Positions 34,707-64,000 of a stretch of 64,000 nt of DNA are shown here, in pieces. The stretch spans positions 2,769,365 to 2,833,364 of the forward strand of contig NZ_MWQN01000001.1 in assembly GCF_002024165.1 (NCBI RefSeq). Direction: 5' to 3'. The first letter of the stretch is position 1. Each line of letters begins with the position of its first letter. The notes below the pieces were generated by a model, which was not told where the DNA came from, did not search any database, and saw only the letters and a list, made by a program, of their open reading frames with translations. This DNA is from Embleya scabrispora (GTDB lineage: Bacteria > Actinomycetota > Actinomycetes > Streptomycetales > Streptomycetaceae). The translations under genes were made by a program, and so were the position numbers.

Positions 34707-35351
34707 TCACTGGTCCAGGTATGCGAGGACCGCGAGCACTCGGCGGTTGTCGCCGTCGGCCGGTAGTAGGCCCAGCTTGGTGAAGATGCTGCTTATGTGC
34801 TTGGCGACGGCCTTCTCCGAGATGAACAGGGACTGGGCGATGCCGGCGTTGGAGCGGCCCTGGGCCACCCACACCAAGACCTCGCGCTCCCGACTCGACA
34901 GGGTGCTCATGCTCTCGTCGCGCTCCTTGCGCACCAGGAGCTGGGAGATCACGTCGGGGTCCATCACGGTGCCGCCCTCGGCCACCCGCCGGATGGAGTC
35001 CAGGAATTGCGCTCCGTTGGTCACCCGGCCCTTGAGGATGTAGCCGATCCCGCAGCCGCCGCTGCTCAGCAACTCGCGTGCGTACAGCGGCTCGACGTAC
35101 TGGGAGAGGAGCAGCACGGGCAGGTCGGGCATCTCGCGCCGGGCGGCGAGGACCGCACGCAGGCCCTCGTCGGTGAAGTTCGGCGGCAGTCGGACGTCGA
35201 CGATCGCGACGTCCGGTCGTGCCTCGGTGAGCGACTCCAGCAGGTCCGCTCCGTTTTCCACCGCGGCCACGATCTCGTGGCCGTGTGCTTCCAGGAGGCG
35301 GATCAGTCCGTCCCTAAGGAGGAAGTGGTCTTCGGCGAGGACAATTCGCAC
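34707..35351 (-). CDS. LuxR/NarL-type response regulator
   Basis: 214 residues from GTG 35351 with GGAG six bases upstream, overlapping the kinase gene by 49 bp. The receiver domain begins VRIVLAEDHFLLRDGL with the phosphorylated Asp in VAIVDVRLPP and the conserved Lys in YILKGRV. The C-terminal LuxR HTH is LSSREREVLVWVAQGRSNAGIAQSLFISEKAVAKHISSIFTKLGL. It forms a two-component pair with the overlapping kinase. Targets are unknown; a palindrome upstream of the kinase may be an autoregulatory site. Confidence 0.93.
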   Translation of the reverse strand: MRIVLAEDHFLLRDGLIRLLEAHGHEIVAAVENGADLLESLTEARPDVAIVDVRLPPNFTDEGLRAVLAARREMPDLPVLLLSQYVEPLYARELLSSGGCGIGYILKGRVTNGAQFLDSIRRVAEGGTVMDPDVISQLLVRKERDESMSTLSSREREVLVWVAQGRSNAGIAQSLFISEKAVAKHISSIFTKLGLLPADGDNRRVLAVLAYLDQ

Positions 35352-36634
35352 GGAAGCTCCATCGTCACCATCGTCGGGCCGTTGACGGGGCTGTTCACGG
35401 CCAGTACACCGTCGAAAGTGGCAAGGCGTCGCTCGACGCCCCGCAGGCCGGTGCCACGGGCGGCGTCCGCGCCGCCGTGTCCGGTGTCGGTGATGGTGAC
35501 GCGCAGCATTCCGTGATCGTAACGGACGTCGATCCAGGCCCGATCCGCGTTCGAGTGCTTGGCGACATTGGTGAGGATCTCCGAGATCGCGAAGTACGCG
35601 GCCGACTCGATCGGCATCTCGGGGCGGCCCGGCAGGTCGACGGTGACCTCGGTGGGGACCGGGCAGACCATGGCCAACGAGCGGACCGCGTCGACGAGTC
35701 CGCGGTCGGCGAGCACCGGCGGGTGGATGCCGCGAACCAGATTGCGCAGTTCCTGCAACGCCTTGGCCGAGGACTGGCGTGCCTCGATCAACAGGGCGCG
35801 CACGGCCTCGGGGTTGGTCTCCAGGAGGCGTTCCGCGGCGTCCAGGTTCATGCCCATCGCCACCAGGCGCGCCTGGGCGCCGTCGTGCAGGTCGCGCTCG
35901 ATCCGGCGGATCTCGGCCATCTGCGTGTCCGCCGCGTCCGAGCGGGTCGTGGCGAGGTGCTCGATGCGGCCGGCCATCATCTCGTTCTCGCTCGGGGCGA
36001 GCATCGCGTGGGTGTACAGGGCGTGTTTGCGCACGGCGCGGGGCGCCACCCACAGGGCCAGCGGCAGGTGCAGTACGCCGAGGATGCCCGCGAGCACCGC
36101 GGTGGCCGAACCCCCGATCGGGATGAAGTAGTACCACAGGCCGTCCCACTCCTCGGAGAGCGAGACGCCGAAGAAGGCGAGGAAGATGCCCCACGCGCTG
36201 CCCAGGACCAGGGCGATCGGGAAGAAGGCCAGGAAGGCGCCGGCGACGGGGTCGGAGAGCACCCAGACGAACTCCCGCCGCAGTTGCGGGTCGTTCATGA
36301 TCCAGCGGTAGCGGGCGACGACTCCCGAGGCGCCCGCGGGCACCGGCGGCTGGGGGCGGGCCGGGATCGGGATCTGCACGCCGGACCAGCGCGCGGCCAG
36401 CGCGCGTTGACGGTTGCTCAGCCCGCGTACGCCCGCCATGGCGCGTGGCACCATGCCGAGGCCCGGACCCACCAGGGTGATCGCGCCGGAGACGGCAAGG
36501 GAGCGGCCGAGGGCCGCGAGCGACATCCAGCACAGGGCTAACGCCCGTCGCAGACCGACGAACCCGGCAGGGACGGAGAACCCCTTGACCTCGTCCGACG
36601 ACGGGCTTTCCCCGGGCTGCGTCGTGCCGTCCAT
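35303..36634 (-). CDS. sensor histidine kinase, NarL/DesK-type (HisKA_3)
   Basis: 443 residues. The N-terminal sensor module has about four to six membrane segments (ALALCWMSLAALGRSLAV, GAFLAFFPIALVLGSAWGIF, ATAVLAGILGVLHLPLALWV) and resembles the Sensor/PF13796 type. The HisKA_3 site is RRIERDLHDGAQARLVAMGM with the phosphorylated His, and the HATPase_c domain carries EILTNVAKHSNAD and TDTGHGG. The ligand is unknown. It lies between tRNA-Arg and the biosynthetic cluster, so it may or may not regulate the cluster. Confidence 0.93.
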   Translation of the reverse strand: MDGTTQPGESPSSDEVKGFSVPAGFVGLRRALALCWMSLAALGRSLAVSGAITLVGPGLGMVPRAMAGVRGLSNRQRALAARWSGVQIPIPARPQPPVPAGASGVVARYRWIMNDPQLRREFVWVLSDPVAGAFLAFFPIALVLGSAWGIFLAFFGVSLSEEWDGLWYYFIPIGGSATAVLAGILGVLHLPLALWVAPRAVRKHALYTHAMLAPSENEMMAGRIEHLATTRSDAADTQMAEIRRIERDLHDGAQARLVAMGMNLDAAERLLETNPEAVRALLIEARQSSAKALQELRNLVRGIHPPVLADRGLVDAVRSLAMVCPVPTEVTVDLPGRPEMPIESAAYFAISEILTNVAKHSNADRAWIDVRYDHGMLRVTITDTGHGGADAARGTGLRGVERRLATFDGVLAVNSPVNGPTMVTMELPCELSSPKTTSSLGTD

Positions 36635-36768: not shown

Positions 36769-37245
36769 TCAGGGCACGGCCAGGGGCGTCCCGGGGGCGA
36801 CGAAGAGCGACAGGGTGTCCGCCACGCAGGCCGCCTGCTGCCGGCCCTCCACCTCCACCGTCATGCGTACGGCGGTCAGGTGGCCCGAGGGCGTTTCGCG
36901 GACGCCGGTGAGTCTGGCGCCGCCGCGGACCCGGGCCCCGACCGGCACGGGGCGGGGGAAACGCACCTTGTCCAGGCCGAAGTTGACGCCGAGCTCGACC
37001 TTTTCGATCGCGAAGATCGCCCGCATCATCGCGGGCAGCAGCGCGAGTGTCATATAGCCGTGGACGATGGTCCCGCCGAACGGTCCGGTCGCCGCCCGCT
37101 CGGGATCCACGTGAATCCACTGGAGGTCGCCGGTCGCACCGGCGAATTGGTCGACACTTTCCTGGGTGACTTCGAGCCATTCGCTGTAGCCGAGGTGTTC
37201 GCCGGCCGCGCCGGCGAATTCCTCCAGGCTGTTGAAGGATCTCAT
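36769..37245 (-). CDS. MaoC-like (R)-specific enoyl-CoA/ACP hydratase
   Basis: 158 residues from ATG 37245. Single hotdog fold with the catalytic hydratase-2 Asp/His motif FAGATGDLQWIHVDPERAATGPFGGTIVHGYMTLALLP. Enzymes of this kind hydrate or dehydrate acyl-CoA or acyl-ACP substrates. It is the only dehydratase-type enzyme beside a polyketide ketosynthase set that has a ketoreductase but no FabZ, so it is the best candidate for the dehydration step; that link is inference. It is 142 bp downstream of sbnB on the same strand, with SARP-like repeats between them. Confidence 0.87.
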   Translation of the reverse strand: MRSFNSLEEFAGAAGEHLGYSEWLEVTQESVDQFAGATGDLQWIHVDPERAATGPFGGTIVHGYMTLALLPAMMRAIFAIEKVELGVNFGLDKVRFPRPVPVGARVRGGARLTGVRETPSGHLTAVRMTVEVEGRQQAACVADTLSLFVAPGTPLAVP

Positions 37246-37307
37246 GCGGCAGATTCTGTGTGGGCGTCGAGGACGCGGCAAGGTGCTCCAGGGTCGGTTG
37301 CGCGTTC

Positions 37308-37336
37308 GGTCAGCGCGCCGTCAGCCGGCTGTCAGC
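37308..37336 (+). promoter_or_regulatory. SARP-like heptamer repeats between sbnB and the MaoC gene
   Basis: GGTCAGC (37308-37314), CGTCAGC (37319-37325) and TGTCAGC (37330-37336): exact 11-bp periodicity with 4-base spacers. Orientation is opposite to both flanking genes and no TANNNT lies at the expected distance, so its role is less clear than at the other sites. Confidence 0.5.
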
Positions 37337-37387: not shown

Positions 37388-38419
37388 TCAGCCGTAGCGC
37401 TTGAGTTCGTGGAAGAAGTCCGGGACGGTGTGCAGTCCGTCCGCTTCGCGGACGCGGTCGTACACGTACTTCGCGACGGCCATGTCGAGGACGCCCAGGC
37501 CGAACGGCGAGAAGACCACCGGCCGGTCGGTCGGCGGGGCGATCGCCCCGGTGAGCACGTCGTATAGGGTGCCGGCGACGAACTCGCGGTGACCGACCAC
37601 CTGTTCGGCCAAATGCGGCGAGGTGTTCGCCTTCATGCAGTGCTCGATGTCGTCGACGATGTTCCACGAGTCCAGGACGATCTCGGGGGACAGGTCCCGC
37701 AGCGAGACGTGCAGCACCAGCGGGTTGTGCGCGAACCACCGCGGATCGCTCACATGCGGCTCCCCCGCGACGGTGGCGAAGACCACCAGATCGCTGGAAC
37801 GGATCAGGTCCTCGGCCTTGTCGTGGATGGTGATCTCGCGATCCGCGCCCTCGGCCCGGCGCAGGTAGCCCGCGAAGCCCTCGGCGTACTCGGCGGACAC
37901 GTCGTGCACGCCGATCGACTCGAAGGCGAAGCCGCTGCCCGCGAGGTACCGGTGCACATAGCGGGCGATCAGGCCGACTCCGAAGAAGCCCACCCGTGTG
38001 GGGCGTTGCCCGCGCGCCTCGCCGAGCCGCGCCGCCGCGAGAGCCGCGGAGGCGGCGGTGCGCGCCGCGCTGATGATGGAACTCTCCAGGCAGGCGAACG
38101 GGTAGCCGGTCTCGGCGTCGTTGAGAATGAGCACGGCCGAGGCGCGCGGGATGCCGGCGGCCACGTTCTCCGGGAAGCTGGAGATCCACTTGATGCCGTG
38201 CACCTCCACATCGCCCTTGATCGACGCGGGCAGCGCGATGATCCGCGACGACGGACGATCGGGGAAGCGCAGGAAGTACGAGTCGGGGTTGACCGTCTGC
38301 CCCTCGCCGTGCAGCCGGTACGCGGCCTCGATCGTCGCGACGACCTCCTCCTCGCGGCCGCCGAGGACTTGGTGCACCTGAGCGCCGGAGACCACGGCGA
38401 AGGAAGGTACCTGATTCAT
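37388..38419 (-). CDS. sbnB: N-(2-amino-2-carboxyethyl)-L-glutamate dehydrogenase SbnB (L-Dap synthesis)
   Basis: 343 residues from ATG 38419 (AGGAG nine bases upstream). Ornithine cyclodeaminase/mu-crystallin fold: substrate region IKWISSFPENVAAGIPRASAVLILND, NAD-binding GFFGVGLIARYVHRYL, and DIEHCMKANTSPHLAEQ. In the siderophore staphyloferrin B pathway SbnB oxidatively cleaves the SbnA product into L-2,3-diaminopropionate and 2-oxoglutarate. With sbnA at the other end of the cluster, the cell can make Dap for the NRPS A domains of matching specificity. It ends the ACP-KS-KS-KR-oxidoreductase operon. Confidence 0.9.
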   Translation of the reverse strand: MNQVPSFAVVSGAQVHQVLGGREEEVVATIEAAYRLHGEGQTVNPDSYFLRFPDRPSSRIIALPASIKGDVEVHGIKWISSFPENVAAGIPRASAVLILNDAETGYPFACLESSIISAARTAASAALAAARLGEARGQRPTRVGFFGVGLIARYVHRYLAGSGFAFESIGVHDVSAEYAEGFAGYLRRAEGADREITIHDKAEDLIRSSDLVVFATVAGEPHVSDPRWFAHNPLVLHVSLRDLSPEIVLDSWNIVDDIEHCMKANTSPHLAEQVVGHREFVAGTLYDVLTGAIAPPTDRPVVFSPFGLGVLDMAVAKYVYDRVREADGLHTVPDFFHELKRYG

Positions 38420-38493
38420 GGGAACACTGCTCCTGGTCGGGCGGAAGGGCCTGGTCGGGATGGGAAGGTGATCGGTCGTGGGCCGGGCGGCCC

Positions 38494-40206
38494 TCAGCCG
38501 ATGCCGGCCAGGCCCTTCGCGCGCCGCCGCGCCTGTCCGCGCGAGACGGCCAGTGGGTCCCAGTCCGGTGCCCGTTCGGGCAGTCTGGAGGCGTCGCCGA
38601 GCACCACGCCGGTGTACGCCTCGGCGAACAGCCCGCGCCCGAGGATGCGCGAGGCGGCGGCGATTCCGCAGGTCGCCACGCCGCCGATGCCGCTGCCGTA
38701 GCGGACGTTCTGGCCGACCACGTACAGACCCTCGACCTCGGTCCGCACGTCGGGCCGCCGGGCCGTGCCGCCCCAGGTGGCCATGCCGTACGGGGTGCCG
38801 CCGCCGGCCCGGATGTAGCGCTCGTTGGTCAGCGGAGTCGCCGTTTCCACGTGGGTGATGCGGCTCCGGAACGGGCCGAGGATCTTTTCGGCGGTGTCCA
38901 GCATCGCCTCGGTCAACTGCCGCTTGCGGGCGAGGTAGGTGGGGTTGCGGCGGTAGGGCTCGCCGTGCACCGGTCCGCCCGGCACGCCCCAGAAGTCGTA
39001 ACCGAACGGGCAGTTCATCATGAGCTGGAAGTTGCTGTGGCCCGGCGGGCACACGGCGTGCGCCCCCGGGTCCCGGAGGGAGGCGAAGAACAGGGCGAGT
39101 TGCGACACCGTGTCCATCGATCCGTCGCGGGCGTACCGCTCCAGCATCGCCGCGTGCGCGCCCTCCATGTCGTCACTGCCGTGCCACCAGATGTTGGCGT
39201 TGGGCAGCGCCGGCAACTCGGTGTCGAGCGCGACGTACACCGAGACGATGGCATTGCGCATGGTCGCCTCGCGCGTGCGTGCCACGAGGCCGGCGGGGAA
39301 GGCCGCCTCGCCGCCGCACAGGTCGAGGACGGTGCTCCGGTAGTCCGCGTTGGAGATGACCAGCGGCGCCGAGATCCGCTGCCCGTCGGTGAGTTCGACG
39401 CCGGTGGCACGCCCGTTCTCGATCAGGATGCGGCGCACCTCACACCGGGTGCGCAGCTCGCCGCCGTACGCCTCCAGCGCCTCGACGAACGCGGCCACCA
39501 GGGCCTGACCGCCGCCCTCGGGGTAGTACGCGCCGCGCAGGTAGTGGTCGGTGATGTTGACGTGCTCGGCGAAGCCGACTCCGTCGGGCATCGAGCCGTA
39601 GTTGCCGGCCTGGGCCGCGATCAGTGTGCGCCCCTTGGCGGACAGGCCGCAGTGGTCCAGGGCCTGGCCCAGCGTACGGCGGGTCCAGCGCATCGCCTCC
39701 GGGAACCGGCGGCACAACTGCGCCATCGAATCGCCCGTAAGACTGGCCCGGTTCACGGCGGCCAGAGCCGTGGCGAGCTCGATGAACCGGTCGACGCGGT
39801 CGGCCTCCTCGGGCAGCGCCTGCCTGAGCCGGTCGGCGTAGGCATCCCATCCGGCCGGCACGTCCAGGGTCGCGGTGGGCGTCATGACCCGGTCGAAGCC
39901 GTGCTCGTTGTCCATGGGCAAAAAGCGCACCCGGTCGCGGACTCCGAGCCCGGACAAAATCGTGGGGATCAGCCCGTCGGGGCCACAGTCGCCGAGGTAG
40001 TGCATGCCGACGTCGAACTCGTACTTGCGCCGCCTGCGGAAGGCGTGCGCGTTGCCGCCCGCCACGTCGTGCTGTTCGAGCATGAGCACGCGGCGCCCGT
40101 CGGCGGCCAGATAGCCGCCGGTGACCAGGCCGCCGATGCCGCTGCCGACGACGATCGCGTCGTAGCTGTCCCGAAGGCCCCCGGCTCCCTGCGTTCCCGT
40201 GCCCAT
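38494..40206 (-). CDS. CrtI/phytoene desaturase-like FAD oxidoreductase
   Basis: 570 residues. The N-terminal FAD motif is YDAIVVGSGIGGLVTGGYLAADGRRVLMLEQHDVAGG, and the C-terminal block GLYVVGQNVRYGSGIGGVATCGIAAASRIL is the CrtI signature. Relatives desaturate or isomerise polyenes, and similar proteins accompany type II polyketide genes in cinnamoyl-containing peptide clusters, where they are proposed to aromatise a polyene. Here it could desaturate or aromatise the acyl chain; a role in carotenoids is unlikely because no phytoene synthase is present. Its ATG overlaps the ketoreductase stop (TGATG). Confidence 0.85.
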   Translation of the reverse strand: MGTGTQGAGGLRDSYDAIVVGSGIGGLVTGGYLAADGRRVLMLEQHDVAGGNAHAFRRRRKYEFDVGMHYLGDCGPDGLIPTILSGLGVRDRVRFLPMDNEHGFDRVMTPTATLDVPAGWDAYADRLRQALPEEADRVDRFIELATALAAVNRASLTGDSMAQLCRRFPEAMRWTRRTLGQALDHCGLSAKGRTLIAAQAGNYGSMPDGVGFAEHVNITDHYLRGAYYPEGGGQALVAAFVEALEAYGGELRTRCEVRRILIENGRATGVELTDGQRISAPLVISNADYRSTVLDLCGGEAAFPAGLVARTREATMRNAIVSVYVALDTELPALPNANIWWHGSDDMEGAHAAMLERYARDGSMDTVSQLALFFASLRDPGAHAVCPPGHSNFQLMMNCPFGYDFWGVPGGPVHGEPYRRNPTYLARKRQLTEAMLDTAEKILGPFRSRITHVETATPLTNERYIRAGGGTPYGMATWGGTARRPDVRTEVEGLYVVGQNVRYGSGIGGVATCGIAAASRILGRGLFAEAYTGVVLGDASRLPERAPDWDPLAVSRGQARRRAKGLAGIG

Positions 40207-40934
40207 CAGAAGGTGCCACCACCGTGGATCTCGAAGACCGACCCCGTGATGTACGCGGCTCGGTCCGACACCAGGAAGGACACCAGGTCCGCCACCTCCT
40301 CGGGGCGGCCGGCGCGCCCGAGCGCCACGTTCTTCAGCATCCGCTCCACCGCGGCCTCGGACATGTCGCCGACCATGTCGGTCGCGATCAGGCCCGGGGC
40401 GACCACGTTGGCGCGCACACCGCGTGGCCCGCACTCCTTGGCGAGGGACTTGGTGAAGCCGATGATCCCGGCCTTGGAGGCGGCGTAGTTGGCCTGCCCG
40501 ATGTTCCCGTGGATCCCGGACACCGAGGACAGATTGACGATCGCGCCGTTCCTGCGCTTGCTCATGGAGAACGCGGCGGCGCGGCACACGTGGTAGACGC
40601 CGTCCAGATTGGTCCGCAGGACCCGGCCCCAGTCCTCCTCGGGCATCAGGATCACCGGCCGGTCCCGGGTGATGCCCGCCGAGGTGACGGCGACGTCGAC
40701 GGGGCCGAGTTCGCGCTCGGTACGCGCGTACCAGTCGCGCACGTCCGCCGCGTCGGACACGTCGCAGCGGGCGGCCGTGACGCGGGTGCCGAACTCGCTC
40801 GCCTCCTTGACGAGTTCCTCGGCGGCTTCCTCGTTCGAGCGGTAGCAGAACGCGATGTCGTACCCGTCCCGGGCCAGGCGCAGCACGATGGCCTTGCCGA
40901 TGCCCCGGGACCCGCCGCTGACCAGCGCGATCAT
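40206..40934 (-). CDS. 3-oxoacyl-ACP reductase (FabG-type ketoreductase)
   Basis: 242 residues, a short-chain dehydrogenase with TGxxxGIG variant SGGSRGIGKAI, NNAG-type motif SAGI, catalytic Ser in NLSSVSG, and YAASK. It reduces the beta-keto group on the ACP-bound chain. Its ATG overlaps the KS-beta stop (ATGA), so the subunits are translationally coupled. Confidence 0.93.
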   Translation of the reverse strand: MIALVSGGSRGIGKAIVLRLARDGYDIAFCYRSNEEAAEELVKEASEFGTRVTAARCDVSDAADVRDWYARTERELGPVDVAVTSAGITRDRPVILMPEEDWGRVLRTNLDGVYHVCRAAAFSMSKRRNGAIVNLSSVSGIHGNIGQANYAASKAGIIGFTKSLAKECGPRGVRANVVAPGLIATDMVGDMSEAAVERMLKNVALGRAGRPEEVADLVSFLVSDRAAYITGSVFEIHGGGTF

Positions 40935-42058
40935 GCGTGCTCCCCCAGCAGTCGCAGCACGGCACAGGCCACCGCGCCGTCCCGGTCGACGGCGGACACC
41001 AGCGCGATCCGACCGGACGAGGTCGGGTCGGCCTCGGCCACTCCGAGCACCGCCTGGATCTGGAAGGAGGCGGAGGCCGCACTGGTGTCGCCGAGCAGTT
41101 CCATGGGTGGCACCCGCGACAGCGCGTCGGCGGGCAGCAGCGCCGCCAGGGCCTCCGACTCGGCCCGACCGGCGGCGTTGGGGGCGGCGCACGGGACGGC
41201 CGCCCACACCTCGTCGGGGGTGACGCCGGCGCGATTCAGGGCGCGGCGGGCGCAGGCGGTGACGGCGGCCCGCGGGTCGTCGTCGATGTCGACGCCGGTC
41301 TGGATACTCAACACCGCGGCCAGTGCGGGGCTTTCGGCGGCGCCGGCGTGCTCGACCAGGAACAGGCCGCAGCCCTCGCCGAGCAGCGGCGAGGGGTCGC
41401 CGGCCGCGAGGGCGGTGTACTCGAACCAGGCGTGTATGGCGGAGAACTCCTCGACGGAACCCACCAGGTACTTCGTCGCACGGCCCTGGCTCATCAGCCG
41501 CCGCGCGTAGTTGAGGGCGAGCAGCCCGCTGACCCGGCCGCCCGCGACCGTCGTGTTGGGGCCCTTGAGGTCGTGTCGGATCGCACAGGCCCCCGCGGCG
41601 TGGTTGAGGCTGCCGAAGGGGATGCGGCCGGCGTCGACGTGGAAGGGGAGCGCGTTCGTGTAGGACTGACGCAGGAGGTCCGTCATGTTCTCCAGGCTGC
41701 CCATGGAGATACCGAGAACCACACCGGTGGCCTCGTCGGTCCGCACCGCCCTGTTGCCTTCGGCGTCCAGGAGCAGCCCGTCGGAGGCGACCAGGGTCAG
41801 TGCGGTGAGCCGGTCCATCTTGGCCGTGCCCTGCGGGCCGAGCAGGCCCTGGATGTCGAAGCCCGGGACCGTGCAGACGTTGGGCGACGGCAGCGTGCCG
41901 AGCGCCGCGTCCGCCTTCACGGCCGTCCTCGCGCCGCCGCGCACGCCCGCGGCGAAGGCCTCGCGGGTCACGCCGTACGGGGATACGGCCGACCATCCGG
42001 TGATGACGAGCGTCTCCGGCGGCAGCGACGCCGCCGGGGTGACTGCTGCGGTACTCAT
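40931..42058 (-). CDS. ketosynthase beta subunit / chain length factor (no active-site Cys)
   Basis: 375 residues of thiolase fold. The position of the catalytic Cys (TTACAAG in the partner) reads TTVAGGRVSG, an Arg near residue 175; the HGTGT His loop is likewise replaced (PCAAPNAAGRAES). Only CLF-type subunits tolerate such losses; they set chain length by heterodimerising with KS-alpha. Classical CLFs usually carry Gln at the Cys position, so Arg is unusual. ATG 42058 lies eight bases from the KS-alpha stop. Confidence 0.85.
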   Translation of the reverse strand: MSTAAVTPAASLPPETLVITGWSAVSPYGVTREAFAAGVRGGARTAVKADAALGTLPSPNVCTVPGFDIQGLLGPQGTAKMDRLTALTLVASDGLLLDAEGNRAVRTDEATGVVLGISMGSLENMTDLLRQSYTNALPFHVDAGRIPFGSLNHAAGACAIRHDLKGPNTTVAGGRVSGLLALNYARRLMSQGRATKYLVGSVEEFSAIHAWFEYTALAAGDPSPLLGEGCGLFLVEHAGAAESPALAAVLSIQTGVDIDDDPRAAVTACARRALNRAGVTPDEVWAAVPCAAPNAAGRAESEALAALLPADALSRVPPMELLGDTSAASASFQIQAVLGVAEADPTSSGRIALVSAVDRDGAVACAVLRLLGEHA

Positions 42059-42066
42059 GGTGGGAC

Positions 42067-43329
42067 TCACTCTCCGTACGTCCCCAGAATCAGGATGGCG
42101 TTGTTGCCGGCGAAGGCGCTGGAGTTGTTCTGCACGAGTCGCACGTCCGCGTCGATGGCGTGGTTGGGCACGACGTCGAGCGGGCAGGCCGGGTCCGTCT
42201 CCCGATGGTGGATCGTCGGCGGAATGAACCCGTGCTCGATGGCGAGGCTGCAGGCGATGGCGCCGAGGGCGCTCGCCGCTCCCATCGCGTGGCCGAGCAT
42301 CGACTTCAGGGCCACGGTGCGCGGCGGCGCGTCGCCGTACACGTCGAGGATGGCGGCCGACTCCGTGCGGTCGTTGGCCTTGGTGCCGGTGCCGTGCGCG
42401 GAGATGAAGTCGATCTCCTCCTTCTTGACCCCGGCGTCGTCCAGGGCGAGGCGAATGCCGCGCGCGATGCCGACGCGGTCCGGTGCGGTGGCGTGGTTGG
42501 CGTCGCAGCTGAGGCCGTAGCCGAGCACCTCGGCGTAGATGTGCGCGTCGCGCGCGAGCGCCGATTCCAGGCTCTCCAGGACGAGGATTCCCGCGCCCTC
42601 GCTGGTGAGGATGCCCTGCCGGTTCTTGTCGAAGGGCCGTACCACGTCCGGGGTGAGCGCGCCGAACCGCTTGAAGGTGAGGTACGCCTTGCGGCACACC
42701 GCGTCGGCTCCGCCGCACAGCGCGATGTCGACCTCGCCGGAACGGATCGCGTCCAGGCCGTAGCCGATCGAGTAGTTGCCCGCCGCGCAGGCCGTCGTGA
42801 TGGTGGTGGCCTCCACGTTCGGCATGCGCAGTTCGCGGGCGATCACGGTGCTCAGCCGGCCCGCGTTGATGCGGCGGGACAGGACCGGGTCCATGGCCTC
42901 CGGGTCTCCGGCGGCCAGTTCCTGTTCGACGAGCAGCCCGATGTCGTGCGATTCGCCGTCGGTGGTGCCGACGCTGATGAGCGCCTGCCGCTCACGCAGG
43001 TCGGCCTCGCTCAGTCCGGCGTCCACCACGGCCATCCGGGCGGCGGCGACGGCGAACTGCCCGGCGCGGCCCATGTCGTCGAGGGGTACGTTGCGGATCC
43101 AGCGCTCCGGCTCGAACTCGCGGACCTCGCATGCGGTGTTGTGGCCGAACCCGGTGGTGTCGAAGCGGGTGATCGGCCCCGCGCCGGAGCGGCCGGCCCG
43201 CAACGCCGCGGTGAGTTCCTCGACACCCGTGCCGATGCTGGAGATCGCGCCGAGGCCGGTGAGGACGGCCCGGCGGCGATTCGCCGGTGCGCGGGCGGGG
43301 GGCGCCGGCGGTGACTGTGCGGTGGACAT
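42067..43329 (-). CDS. beta-ketoacyl-ACP synthase alpha subunit
   Basis: 420 residues. Catalytic Cys-181 in TTITTACAAGNYS, His in SAHGTGTKANDRTE and the Lys/His of LKSMLGHAMGA are intact. Length, pairing with a Cys-less partner and a free-standing ACP identify a type II polyketide KS-alpha rather than primary FabF. Together with the ketoreductase it fits the highly reducing type II class that makes polyene or alkyl acyl chains. A Pro/Ala-rich N-terminus of 20 residues precedes the fold. Confidence 0.92.
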   Translation of the reverse strand: MSTAQSPPAPPARAPANRRRAVLTGLGAISSIGTGVEELTAALRAGRSGAGPITRFDTTGFGHNTACEVREFEPERWIRNVPLDDMGRAGQFAVAAARMAVVDAGLSEADLRERQALISVGTTDGESHDIGLLVEQELAAGDPEAMDPVLSRRINAGRLSTVIARELRMPNVEATTITTACAAGNYSIGYGLDAIRSGEVDIALCGGADAVCRKAYLTFKRFGALTPDVVRPFDKNRQGILTSEGAGILVLESLESALARDAHIYAEVLGYGLSCDANHATAPDRVGIARGIRLALDDAGVKKEEIDFISAHGTGTKANDRTESAAILDVYGDAPPRTVALKSMLGHAMGAASALGAIACSLAIEHGFIPPTIHHRETDPACPLDVVPNHAIDADVRLVQNNSSAFAGNNAILILGTYGE

Positions 43330-43389
43330 CGGACTCCTTAAGCAGTGGGATGCCTGGGGGCGGGGGTCCGGGAGCGGAGCCCCCGCTGC

Positions 43390-43638
43390 TCACCAACCGG
43401 CAGCGGCGGCGGTCACCTGGTACGTGGTCTCCACGTTCACCATCTTCGGGAGTTCGTCCATGTCGATGACGATGGAGTACTCCATCTCGAGGGCGCTGAG
43501 CACGTCGATGAGTTTCAGGGAGTCGGCGCCCAGTTCGTCGATGAACAGCGTGCTGTCCGAGAACTCGATGTGTACATCGATGTTCTCGGCAATGATTTCC
43601 CTGATGCGGGTAAGGCGCTCGGGCACAACAGTGGTCAT
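43390..43638 (-). CDS. acyl carrier protein
   Basis: 82 residues, acidic helical bundle. The phosphopantetheine Ser-40 sits in LGADSLKLIDVLSALE. GGAG lies eight bases upstream of ATG 43638. It is the first gene of the polyketide operon, with SARP-type repeats and a -10 box just upstream. Chain transfer from this ACP to the first condensation domain of the NRPS is the expected hand-off. Confidence 0.95.
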   Translation of the reverse strand: MTTVVPERLTRIREIIAENIDVHIEFSDSTLFIDELGADSLKLIDVLSALEMEYSIVIDMDELPKMVNVETTYQVTAAAAGW

Positions 43639-43681: not shown

Positions 43682-43736
43682 AAATTAGTCAGCCTCGATG
43701 ACGGGCCGATGACATTCAACTGACCGCTGACTGACG
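43682..43736 (-). promoter_or_regulatory. SARP-type promoter of the ACP-KS operon
   Basis: On the minus strand CGTCAGT (43736-43730), GGTCAGT (43725-43719), TGTCATC (43714-43708) and CGTCATC (43703-43697): four heptamers at exact 11-bp spacing with 4-base spacers. Nine bases farther is TAATTT (43687-43682), a TANNNT -10 box. Transcription would start about 35 bases before the ACP start. No -35 element is needed in this promoter class. Confidence 0.75.
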
Positions 43737-61297: not shown

Positions 61298-62335
61298 TCA
61301 GCCGGAAATCGTTTCGAGTCCGGCGGGGAATCCGGACCCGATGTCCGCGTATTCGACGCCGGCCGTGAGACCCACCGGGCCGATCGAATCGCGCACCCAG
61401 TCGTCGCGGTAAACGGTCTCCATATAGCGCTCGCCCAGGTCCGGCGAAATGGTCACGGCGGTCACCTGGTCGGGCACGCCGGCGGTGCCGTTGCCGTAGT
61501 GCTCGTCGAGCCAGTGGAGCGCTCCGCTCACGGCGGTTCCGGTGGAGCCGCCGAACAGGAACCCGTGGCGCGTCAACTCGCGGCAGGTGCGGACGGTGTC
61601 CGCCTCCTCGACGTGGATCGCGGCGTCCACCAGGGACTCGTCCAGGAGCGGCGGGCGCACGCTGGTGCCCAGGCCCGGGATGTGCCGGGTGGCCGCGGGG
61701 CGCCCGAAGGTGACGGAGCCGACGCTGTCGACGGCGACCACGCGCACCGACGGGCGCCGCTCCCGGAAGTAGCGGGCGCAGCCCATCAGGGTGCCGGTGG
61801 TGCCGGCGCCGATGAACAGCACGTTCAGGTCGGGGAACTGGCGGGCGATGGCCGGCGCGGTGGTCCGGTAGTGGGCCATCCAGTTGCCCGGGCTCAGGTA
61901 CTGGTTGAGCCAGACCTTCTTGTCGTCGGCGGCGAGCAGCGCCTGGACGTACCGGATCCGCGCGCCGAGGAAGCCCTCGGTCTCGTGCGGCTCGGTGACG
62001 ACGTGGACCTCGGCGCCGTAGGACTCCATGGTGCGCCGGGTCACTTCGTTGCACCGCGAGTCGGTCACGCACAGGAACCGGAAGCCCCTGTTCGCGGCGA
62101 GCACGCTCAGGGCGACGCCCATGTTCCCGGACGAGGACTCCACCAGGGTCGAGCCGGGGCCGAGGACACCCGCGGCCTCCGCCTGCGCGACCATCTCACG
62201 GGCCGCCTTCAGCTTGATCGATCCGGCGAAGTTGAATCCCTCGACCTTCAGAAAGAGACGGCGCCCGAAGAGCGGCTGTAAATTCACGAAGAGGTCGCTG
62301 ACCTCGAATTCATGTGACGCGGAAATAACCGGCAC
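61298..62335 (-). CDS. sbnA: N-(2-amino-2-carboxyethyl)-L-glutamate synthase SbnA (L-Dap synthesis)
   Basis: 345 residues, PLP-dependent cysteine-synthase fold. Lys-41 in FAGSIKLKAA is the expected Schiff base; SSSGNMGVALS and GAGTTGTLMGCARYF bind substrate and cofactor phosphate. The SIKLKAA variant and the C-terminal region are characteristic of SbnA rather than CysK. It condenses O-phospho-L-serine with L-glutamate; SbnB then releases L-Dap. GTG start with AGGAG eight bases upstream. It heads the minus-strand NRPS operon. Confidence 0.92.
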   Translation of the reverse strand: MPVISASHEFEVSDLFVNLQPLFGRRLFLKVEGFNFAGSIKLKAAREMVAQAEAAGVLGPGSTLVESSSGNMGVALSVLAANRGFRFLCVTDSRCNEVTRRTMESYGAEVHVVTEPHETEGFLGARIRYVQALLAADDKKVWLNQYLSPGNWMAHYRTTAPAIARQFPDLNVLFIGAGTTGTLMGCARYFRERRPSVRVVAVDSVGSVTFGRPAATRHIPGLGTSVRPPLLDESLVDAAIHVEEADTVRTCRELTRHGFLFGGSTGTAVSGALHWLDEHYGNGTAGVPDQVTAVTISPDLGERYMETVYRDDWVRDSIGPVGLTAGVEYADIGSGFPAGLETISG

Positions 62336-62392
62336 TGGCGACTCCTGGCCCTCGGCAACCCATTAGCCTGGACGGCCAGCCTCTCGCCGCGC

Positions 62393-62421
62393 GCTGACGA
62401 GGTGCTGACGGACTGCTGACG
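62393..62421 (-). promoter_or_regulatory. SARP-type site facing sbnA-NRPS operon
   Basis: Three identical GCTGACG units (62393-62399, 62404-62410, 62415-62421), which is CGTCAGC on the minus strand, with exactly 11-bp spacing. It lies 58 bp upstream of the sbnA start. No good TANNNT lies at the usual 8-10 bases beyond; TAATGG (near 62369-62364) is a weak, distant candidate. Confidence 0.7.
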
Positions 62422-62460
62422 AGGGCGGCGTCACGAGCGCCCCGCCCACCTCGGAAGATG

Positions 62461-62516
62461 CGTCAGCGGCCCGTCAGTTATCGGTCACTTGAGTGTCAGT
62501 GCGATCGGCCTATGTT
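62461..62516 (+). promoter_or_regulatory. SARP-type promoter of the divergent NRPS gene
   Basis: CGTCAGC (62461), CGTCAGT (62472), GGTCACT (62483) and TGTCAGT (62494): four heptamers with 11-bp spacing. Ten bases after the last is TATGTT (62511-62516), fitting a TANNNT -10 box. This puts transcription start near 62523 and favours TTG 62557 over ATG 62512 as the start codon. Confidence 0.75.
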
Positions 62517-62556: not shown

Positions 62557-64000
62557 TTGAATCGGCCGTCCGCGATCAGCGAAGTCCTCTCGCTCTCGCC
62601 GCTGCAACAGGGACTGCTCTTTCTTTCGGAGTACGACCGCGAGGGAACGGATGTCTACACCATCCAGCTGGTGCTCGATTTCCGGGAGACGACCGACGCC
62701 ACGGCGCTGCGCGCCGCGGCGACCGCGCTGCTGGAGCGCCACTCGAATTTGAGGGCATGCTTCCGCCACCGCAAGAACGGCGAGGCGATCCAGATGATCC
62801 CCAAGTCGGTGGTGCTGCCGTGGCACGAGGTGGAGGTGGTCGGCGCCGGGAGCGGACGGGACGCGTCGGTGGAGGCCGAGTTCGACCGGGTGGCCGAACA
62901 GGACCGGCTGCGCCGCTTCGATCTGGCCCGGCCGCCGCTGCACCGGTTCACCCTGATCCGGGCGGACGACGGGCGCTGCCGCCTGGTGTGGACGGTGCAC
63001 CACATCCTGGTGGACGGCTGGTCCATGGTCTCGCTGATCGGCGAACTGAGCGCGCTGGTCGAGGAGTCGAAGTCGGGATCCGCTCACTCCTCGCCGGCCT
63101 CGGCCTCCTACCACGCCTACCTGGCCTGGCTCGGCGCGCAGGACAAGGCCGCCGCCCGGCAGGCCTGGGCGCGGGCGCTGGCCGGTGTCACCGAGCCGAC
63201 GCGGCTGGTCCCGGTGGGCCACGCCCACACCGAGGGCCGGGGCGCGCTGCCCGAGTCGGTTCCGCTCGACCTCTCCCCCGAAGTCTCCGCCGACCTCGTC
63301 CGGTTCGCCCGCTCGCGCGGCCTGACCGTCAACGCGGTGGTGCAGGGCTGCTGGGCGCTGCTCCTGTCCAGGTCGACCGGCCAGGACACGGTGCTGTTCG
63401 GCGCCGTGACGTCGGGCAGGCCGGCCCAGATCCCCGATGTCGAGCACATGGTGGGCCTGTTCGCCAATACGCTGCCGGTCCGCGTCGACGTCGACCCGGC
63501 CCGTACTCCGGCCGAGCTCTTCGCCGCGGTGCAGCGGGCCCAGGCCGAGCTGCTGCCGCACGAGCACCTGACGTTGGCCGAGGTGCAGCAGCTCACCTCC
63601 GTACGCGGTGAACTCTTCGACACGGCGCTGATGTTCCAGAACTATCCGATGGGGCCGATGCCGCACACCGCGGCCGCCGGCTCCCTGGTGAGCGGTGTCG
63701 ACATCCGCTCCGCCACCCACTACCCGATCACCCTCACGGTCTTTCCCGGCACCCCGCTCGGCCTCGCGGTCAATCATCGGCCCGGGGCGGTCACGCGCGC
63801 CGAGGCCCACCGGGTCGGTCGGCGCTTCGCGCGGCTCCTGGAGTCCGCCGTCGCCCGGCCCGACGTGCCGTGCGGCCGACTCGACATCCTGGACCGGGCG
63901 GAGCGGGCGCACATCGTCGACGGGCGCAACGACACCGGGGTACCGCTCCCCGGCCACTGGCTGGCGCCGCTCCTGGACGCCCGGGCCGAGCACACCCCGC
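62557..64000 (+). CDS. NRPS, condensation domain (3' part outside window)
   Basis: At least 481 codons running off the right edge. TTG 62557 has GAGGAG six bases upstream and gives MNRPSAISEVLSLSPLQQG, parallel to the start of the other NRPS; ATG 62512 lies in the presumed -10 region. A full C domain is visible: [30 protein letters not shown], the active-site [47 protein letters not shown], and LPHEHLTLAEVQ. The terminal segment (ERAHIVDGRNDTG) is the linker into an A domain. It resembles DCL-type C domains, so its upstream donor may be D-configured. Divergent from sbnA and likely coregulated by the shared intergenic SARP sites. Confidence 0.88.
   Translation, partial: MNRPSAISEVLSLSPLQQGLLFLSEYDREGTDVYTIQLVLDFRETTDATALRAAATALLERHSNLRACFRHRKNGEAIQMIPKSVVLPWHEVEVVGAGSGRDASVEAEFDRVAEQDRLRRFDLARPPLHRFTLIRADDGRCRLVWTVHHILVDGWSMVSLIGELSALVEESKSGSAHSSPASASYHAYLAWLGAQDKAAARQAWARALAGVTEPTRLVPVGHAHTEGRGALPESVPLDLSPEVSADLVRFARSRGLTVNAVVQGCWALLLSRSTGQDTVLFGAVTSGRPAQIPDVEHMVGLFANTLPVRVDVDPARTPAELFAAVQRAQAELLPHEHLTLAEVQQLTSVRGELFDTALMFQNYPMGPMPHTAAAGSLVSGVDIRSATHYPITLTVFPGTPLGLAVNHRPGAVTRAEAHRVGRRFARLLESAVARPDVPCGRLDILDRAERAHIVDGRNDTGVPLPGHWLAPLLDARAEHTP

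Follow-up and report, generated by a model that had tools for sequence, protein, structure and literature searches.

The intergenic region between sbnA and a divergent NRPS gene of Embleya scabrispora carries two back-to-back sets of in-phase heptamers, the arrays S3 and S4, which are very probably the operators of two divergent SARP-dependent promoters. They belong to a group of five arrays (S1 to S5; Table 1) in a cluster that joins genes for diaminopropionate synthesis (SbnA, SbnB) to three NRPSs and a ketosynthase-ACP set, and that encodes a small SARP just beyond the right edge of the window, the whole stretch of 64,000 nucleotides that was analysed. The new element among the five is S1, an array inverted relative to its likely target gene, MaoC, which raises the testable possibility of an upstream mode of SARP action.

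Table 1. Arrays, candidate promoter elements and genes of the cluster, in positions of the window or of its continuation beyond the right edge (L022).
Feature	Position	Strand	Description
LuxR/NarL-type response regulator	ends at 34707		after the kinase; Response_reg and GerE
Histidine kinase	35303–36634		after MaoC
MaoC-like dehydratase	36769–37245	-	PF01575
Putative -10 CAGAAT, MaoC promoter	37253–37258	-	-35 TTGCCG at 37276–37281, 17 bp upstream
Array S1	37308–37336	+	3 heptamers, in inverted orientation to MaoC; 62 nt to the MaoC ATG
Presumed operon behind S2	37388–43638	-	ACP, ketosynthase, second KS-like, KR, CrtI-like oxidoreductase, SbnB
Array S2	43697–43736	-	4 heptamers; upstream of ACP-KS-KS2-KR-FAD-SbnB
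SbnA family (2,3-diaminopropionate biosynthesis)	61298–62335	-	TIGR03945, 377.8 bits, cut-off 349.95; first gene after S3
Putative -10 GAGGCT, sbnA promoter	62378–62383	-	9 nt downstream of the last S3 heptamer
Array S3	62393–62421	-	3 identical CGTCAGC, 11-bp pitch; upstream of SbnA-NRPS-NRPS-MbtH-ABC transporter
Array S4	62461–62500	+	4 CGTCAGC-like heptamers, 11-bp pitch; upstream of the divergent NRPS
Putative -10 TATGTT, NRPS promoter	62511–62516	+	10 nt beyond the last S4 heptamer
NRPS downstream of S4	62557–64000, on to 69774	+	ORF, condensation domain
Small SARP, 253 aa	69840–70601 (L022:5840–6601)	-	5.8 kb past the right window edge; adjoins the NRPS
Array S5	74627–74655 (L022:10627–10655)	-	triple site beyond the window edge

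Two predicted promoters between sbnA and the divergent NRPS

The minus strand carries the heptamer CGTCAGC at 62415–62421, 62404–62410 and 62393–62399, with the spacers AGTC and ACCT, and the plus strand carries CGTCAGC (62461–62467), CGTCAGT (62472–62478), GGTCACT (62483–62489) and TGTCAGT (62494–62500), with the spacers GGCC, TATC and TGAG. The preliminary description had reported three and four such heptamers in an exact 11-bp phase, a -10 box ten bases downstream of the plus set, and an orientation of the two sets towards the two divergent operons. Direct reading bears out all of this, and adds a candidate -10 for the minus set. On the sbnA side, a hexamer of the form xAxxxT stands at offset 9 in all 11 compiled arrays, and also in a twelfth (locus L228); GCTAAT, some 25 nt downstream of S3, had been our first choice as the sbnA -10 and was dropped because the hexamer at offset 9 is uniform across species. 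An ATG at 62458 falls at array S4, and the likely start of the NRPS is the TTG at 62557, with GAGGAG upstream, since the similarity with its relatives begins there and GAGGAG is kept. A plasmid DNA search with the sbnA–NRPS intergenic region gave no match.

The triple array is confined to a cluster with its own SARP gene

The triple pattern NGTCANYNNNNNGTCANYNNNNNGTCANY (NGTCANY three times at an 11-bp pitch) has seven matches in the genome of 10,958,352 bases, corresponding to five sites, and all five lie inside C1:2806673–2844018, which is this 38-kb cluster. Read backward, the same pattern has no match across the genome. The number of triple matches expected per genome is 0.05 from base composition and 0.12 from the 7-mer frequency observed in 280 kb of background DNA, and this background contains no triple. 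With a scoring matrix trained on the arrays of other species only, whose GTCA columns are fixed by construction as the training arrays were chosen by that pattern, the five sites score 27.5–34.8; no other place in 184 kb exceeds 7.0, and nothing in the 280-kb background exceeds 6.0. The exact two-repeat pattern places eight of its 11 genome matches in the cluster, and its backward control has five.

On the grounds of this rarity, of the matrix scores and of the expected counts, we reject the idea that the repeats arose by chance or as a by-product of GC-rich composition, which we regard as next to inconceivable: about 0.1 match would be expected and seven were found, the arrays are kept in 11 genomes while their spacers drift, and the distance to the -10 is fixed. 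It is true that a looser two-repeat version, allowing up to three mismatches, is at chance level in the window (27 found, 26.4 expected from shuffles), and the signal therefore depends on the exactness of phase and core and on the presence of a third copy. The earlier judgement that so many matches in phase are improbable by chance is upheld, and the genome scan confines the triple array to this cluster.

The cognate SARP had been said to lie outside the window, and this proved correct, as a search beyond the right edge found a gene for a protein with a Trans_reg_C (PF00486, 42.7 bits) and a BTAD domain (PF03704, 144.5 bits), placed in the same cluster and convergent with the NRPS gene. The protein has the build of the small-SARP family, with an N-terminal OmpR-type DNA-binding domain followed by BTAD in a length of about 250–300 aa and no further domain; a weak TPR_14 match stays below the cut-off. 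Its best solved relative is AfsR (8hvr, E 3e-29), of which W74, R92 and R94 align with W51, R69 and R71 of the SARP, and the base-contacting T88 with an Ala. No sign of autoregulation through an array was seen, none of the 24 best heptamer pairs in 184 kb lying near 69840–71100. Beside the SARP gene, at L022:6734–7024 (window 70734–71024), a 96-aa LuxR-type (GerE) protein is encoded, with a relative of 67–99% identity in 15 of the 34 loci tested; it may control the SARP, whose gene has no array of its own.

Could the arrays be read mainly by another SARP or OmpR-type regulator, for example a pleiotropic AfsR-like SARP or PhoP, with the neighbouring SARP in a secondary role? The 21 BTAD matches of the genome leave room for another SARP at the same sites, and a TCA core is common to Pho boxes and AfsR sites in the available text of PMC7040171. 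However, the triple array occurs only in the cluster where this SARP is encoded, and across genera it mostly tracks the orthologues of this SARP, so that we hold a leading role for another regulator to be very unlikely. Binding, activation and the choice of this SARP over another BTAD protein as partner are what we infer from the sequence. The original reading of the repeats as SARP-type gains support from the SARP at the cluster, from the confinement of the arrays to it, and from the agreement with the published heptamer and geometry.

Conservation of the arrays across genomes

Relatives of the SARP were collected as 55 loci from one pattern-based scan of named genomes. Where the SARP is at least 61% identical, 12 of 19 loci (344 kb in all 19) contain triple matches, 29 in total; at 48–56% identity 4 of 15 loci (311 kb in all 15) contain six, and at 41% or less the 21 loci (395 kb) contain none, the backward control giving 0 in all three classes. 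The loci L096, L097, L107, L109 and L110 (SARPs of 61–88% identity) lie outside the follow-up comparisons. These comparisons took in 15 genomes: 13 scanned whole, the genome of the window, and that of E. hyalina, whose SARP is 98% identical to the one described here. Each of the 13 has at least one triple match, with three backward-control matches in total, and E. hyalina has seven, with one in the backward control. Genomes G002 and G003 have one triple match each; that of G002, which is of the same genus, is an array (C58:66480–66507) situated some 30 bp downstream of another SARP gene (37% identical) and followed by CATAGT at offset 9.

Both sets stand back to back between sbnA and the NRPS gene in 11 of the 15 genomes; the arrays in these comparisons are for the most part orthologues and not independent of one another. 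In Streptomyces sp. AC512_CC834 the sets are some 19 kb apart, each before its own gene and with its own -10-like hexamer, and the pattern did not recover the pair in the remaining three (Streptomyces sp. NRRL WC-3742, S. rubellomurinus and Streptacidiphilus melanogenes). Most SARP orthologues at 80–98% identity, in Embleya, Streptomyces and Kitasatospora, are accompanied by the same arrays. The 83% identical SARP of S. rubellomurinus lacks them, and no cluster gene among those tested lies within 10 kb of it; the genome does have triple matches, which lie outside this cluster type.

Between S3 and S4 there are 30–76 bp in ten loci and 99 bp in L213. Because this gap is so variable and the two sets are widely separated in AC512_CC834, a single cooperative operator made of both is ruled out, and S3 and S4, as far as their sequences speak, behave as two independent, separable promoters. 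Of the shared control region proposed in the preliminary description, the link between the SARP, the arrays and the cluster is thus retained, whereas the notion of one cooperative region is not. When aligned with E. hyalina, the 119 heptamer positions show a single substitution, the 48 spacer positions three and the 560 remaining intergenic positions 51; heptamers differ from other intergenic positions with p = 0.0005, and from spacers with p = 0.07, which is suggestive only.

A constant distance to a putative -10

In the arrays of this cluster and its relatives, leaving aside the 11 inverted MaoC arrays and including the forward MaoC array of L209, xAxxxT follows the last heptamer by 9 or 10 nt in 41 of 41 cases, exactly 9 in 35 of them, and no other offset from 2 to 36 gives xAxxxT in more than seven; the sbnA and ACP classes within this set are defined by the hexamer, and the total of 41 is independent of such labels. 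Outside the set are 14 further arrays, mostly from distant loci, ten of which have a -10-like hexamer at offset 9, the four without one being those of L114, L219, L221 and L086. At array S2 the hexamer is TAATTT, 9 nt downstream. An offset of 9 becomes the published SARP spacing of 8 bp (PMC10936776, PMC4393881) if the heptamer is written GTCAGYN. Both hallmarks of SARP operators, direct repeats at an 11- or 22-bp pitch and a 3' repeat about 8 bp from the -10, are found in S2 to S5, where the offset is 9 or 10, the second being absent from S1. Of the 17 heptamers in the five arrays, 14 have the core GTCAG; one has GTCAC instead and two have GTCAT.

An inverted array upstream of MaoC

S1 is flanked by the minus-strand genes SbnB and MaoC and points away from the latter, its likely target. 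Of the 12 genomes in which MaoC was found, 11 have the array inverted: that of the window, that of E. hyalina, and those of nine Streptomyces or Kitasatospora. In all 11 the inverted array is 62–64 nt from the MaoC ATG, as measured in ten genomes and read from the alignment in E. hyalina, and 26 bp from the MaoC -35 (27 bp in L216). The promoter in these cases consists of the -35 TTGTCC (TTGCCG in Embleya) and a CAGAAT-type -10 at a spacing of 17–18 bp. Since the ATG comes only 7 nt after the -10, the MaoC mRNA is probably leaderless. On the sbnB side the spacing of the array is not fixed, and ranges from an overlap with the stop to about 120 bp. In the array's own direction a -10-like hexamer is missing in ten of the 11 inverted arrays, the sole exception being S. 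alfalfae, and a promoter towards sbnB is an unlikely role for S1. In the twelfth genome, that of Kitasatospora sp. SUK 42, the inverted array is absent, and in its place is a forward array, which has GAGAAT at offset 10 and lies 22 nt from the ATG of MaoC.

In S. alfalfae a single array (L217:6496–6588) separates divergent KASIII and MaoC genes, and is classical towards the one and inverted towards the other. The order of MaoC and then a histidine kinase is the same in relatives, and here a response regulator gene follows the kinase; because they come after MaoC, these two-component genes (34707–36634) may, by way of S1, also be controlled by the SARP.

We see an even chance that SARPs are able to activate a complete promoter from an array that is inverted and lies well upstream of it. 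If the MaoC transcript starts at the ATG, the centre of S1 would lie at about -76, in an inverted placement that is kept across genera. Activation would then be of a class I-like kind, with the alpha C-terminal domain as the presumed contact, in addition to the known mode in which the SARP replaces the -35. The S. alfalfae arrangement suggests that one array could serve two divergent genes in two modes, and Kitasatospora SUK 42 that promoters could switch between them. An ancestral array between divergent KASIII and MaoC genes would have remained as an upstream MaoC site once KASIII moved.

It is nevertheless a serious possibility, somewhat short of even, that S1 does not activate MaoC at all, and is instead what remains of an ancestral divergent KASIII promoter, or serves as a block to read-through from the sbnB operon or as a site of repression. 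The array between divergent KASIII and MaoC genes in S. alfalfae makes an origin as a KASIII promoter plausible, and none of the SARP papers listed in our open-access searches dealt with inverted arrays, subscription papers lying outside this scope. By contrast, the distance to the MaoC ATG is held almost constant in 11 of 11 cases although that to the sbnB stop varies widely, the forward -10 is missing from nearly all of the inverted arrays, and the one genome without an inverted array has a forward one at MaoC in its place. Should S1 function as an upstream activator site, SARPs would not be confined to the -35-replacing position of the model derived from AfsR structures.

Discussion

In the mechanism that we propose, the small SARP would bind each 11-bp repeat as one protomer, in a side-by-side row that occupies the -35 position and whose last repeat ends 8–10 bp before a weak -10. 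As in the AfsR model, this row would engage sigma region 4 together with the alpha C-terminal domain. It would recruit RNA polymerase in both directions, to sbnA with the NRPS genes behind it and to the divergent NRPS gene. Through the further arrays S1, S2 and S5, the same SARP probably turns on the whole cluster: S3 would drive the SbnA-NRPS-NRPS-MbtH-ABC transporter genes, S4 the divergent NRPS, S2 the ACP-KS-KS2-KR-oxidoreductase-SbnB genes and S5 the PPTase-MmpL side, the extents of these operons being drawn from gene order and strand.

In relatives, S5 precedes a probably leaderless gene whose product, of about 310 aa, is KASIII-like in having an ACP_syn_III_C domain (the domain was tested in L222, and the genes behind S5 were translated in L111 and L222–L226). 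Both Embleya genomes have only a 58-codon remnant of this gene (L022:10356–10610, window 74356–74610), the S5 array and its -10 are identical in the two, and the next intact gene after the remnant is the PPTase.

The cluster carries a complete, predicted one-regulator switch, which makes raising the small SARP a rational way to wake it in many strains. As to the product, enamidonin, autucedine, coprisamide and cinnapeptin are what we take to be the leads, and the literature consulted settled none of them.

Comparison with known SARP systems

The predicted operator pair S3/S4 is of a kind already known, SARP-type with a RedD/PapR2-like heptamer, and the five arrays share features with several systems from which they also differ, as these are described in the available parts of the sources. 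(i) In oxytetracycline biosynthesis, OtcR is likewise a cluster SARP, with direct repeats in divergent intergenic regions and the 3' repeat 8 bp before the -10 (PMC4393881), but the repeat sequence is another one, of the 9-nt CGGTCGAAG type. (ii) The PimR operator at the pimM promoter, with three heptamers, 4-nt spacers and no overlap with the -35 (PMC5930380), is a loose precedent for S1; its heptamer, however, is CGGCAAG, PimR is a SARP-LAL regulator, and inverted orientation goes unmentioned in the available part of that paper. (iii) At afsS, the cryo-EM structures of AfsR on the afs box place 11-bp direct repeats over the -35, 8 bp from a weak -10 (PMC10936776), a geometry of array and -10 like the one seen here, and AfsR is the closest solved relative of our SARP; in contrast, afsS has two repeats of different sequence, and AfsR is a large SARP with a different residue at the base-contacting position. 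(iv) The operators of PapR2 and RedD, the SARPs of pristinamycin and undecylprodigiosin, have the heptamer core GTCAG in common with ours, the PapR2 consensus being GTCAGSS, with motifs in the redP–redQ intergenic region (PMC7040171). The final SS is kept loosely here (C or T, then any base), and unlike those operators the heptamers come as three or four copies at a strict 11-bp pitch, in five arrays placed before the main transcription units of a single cluster.
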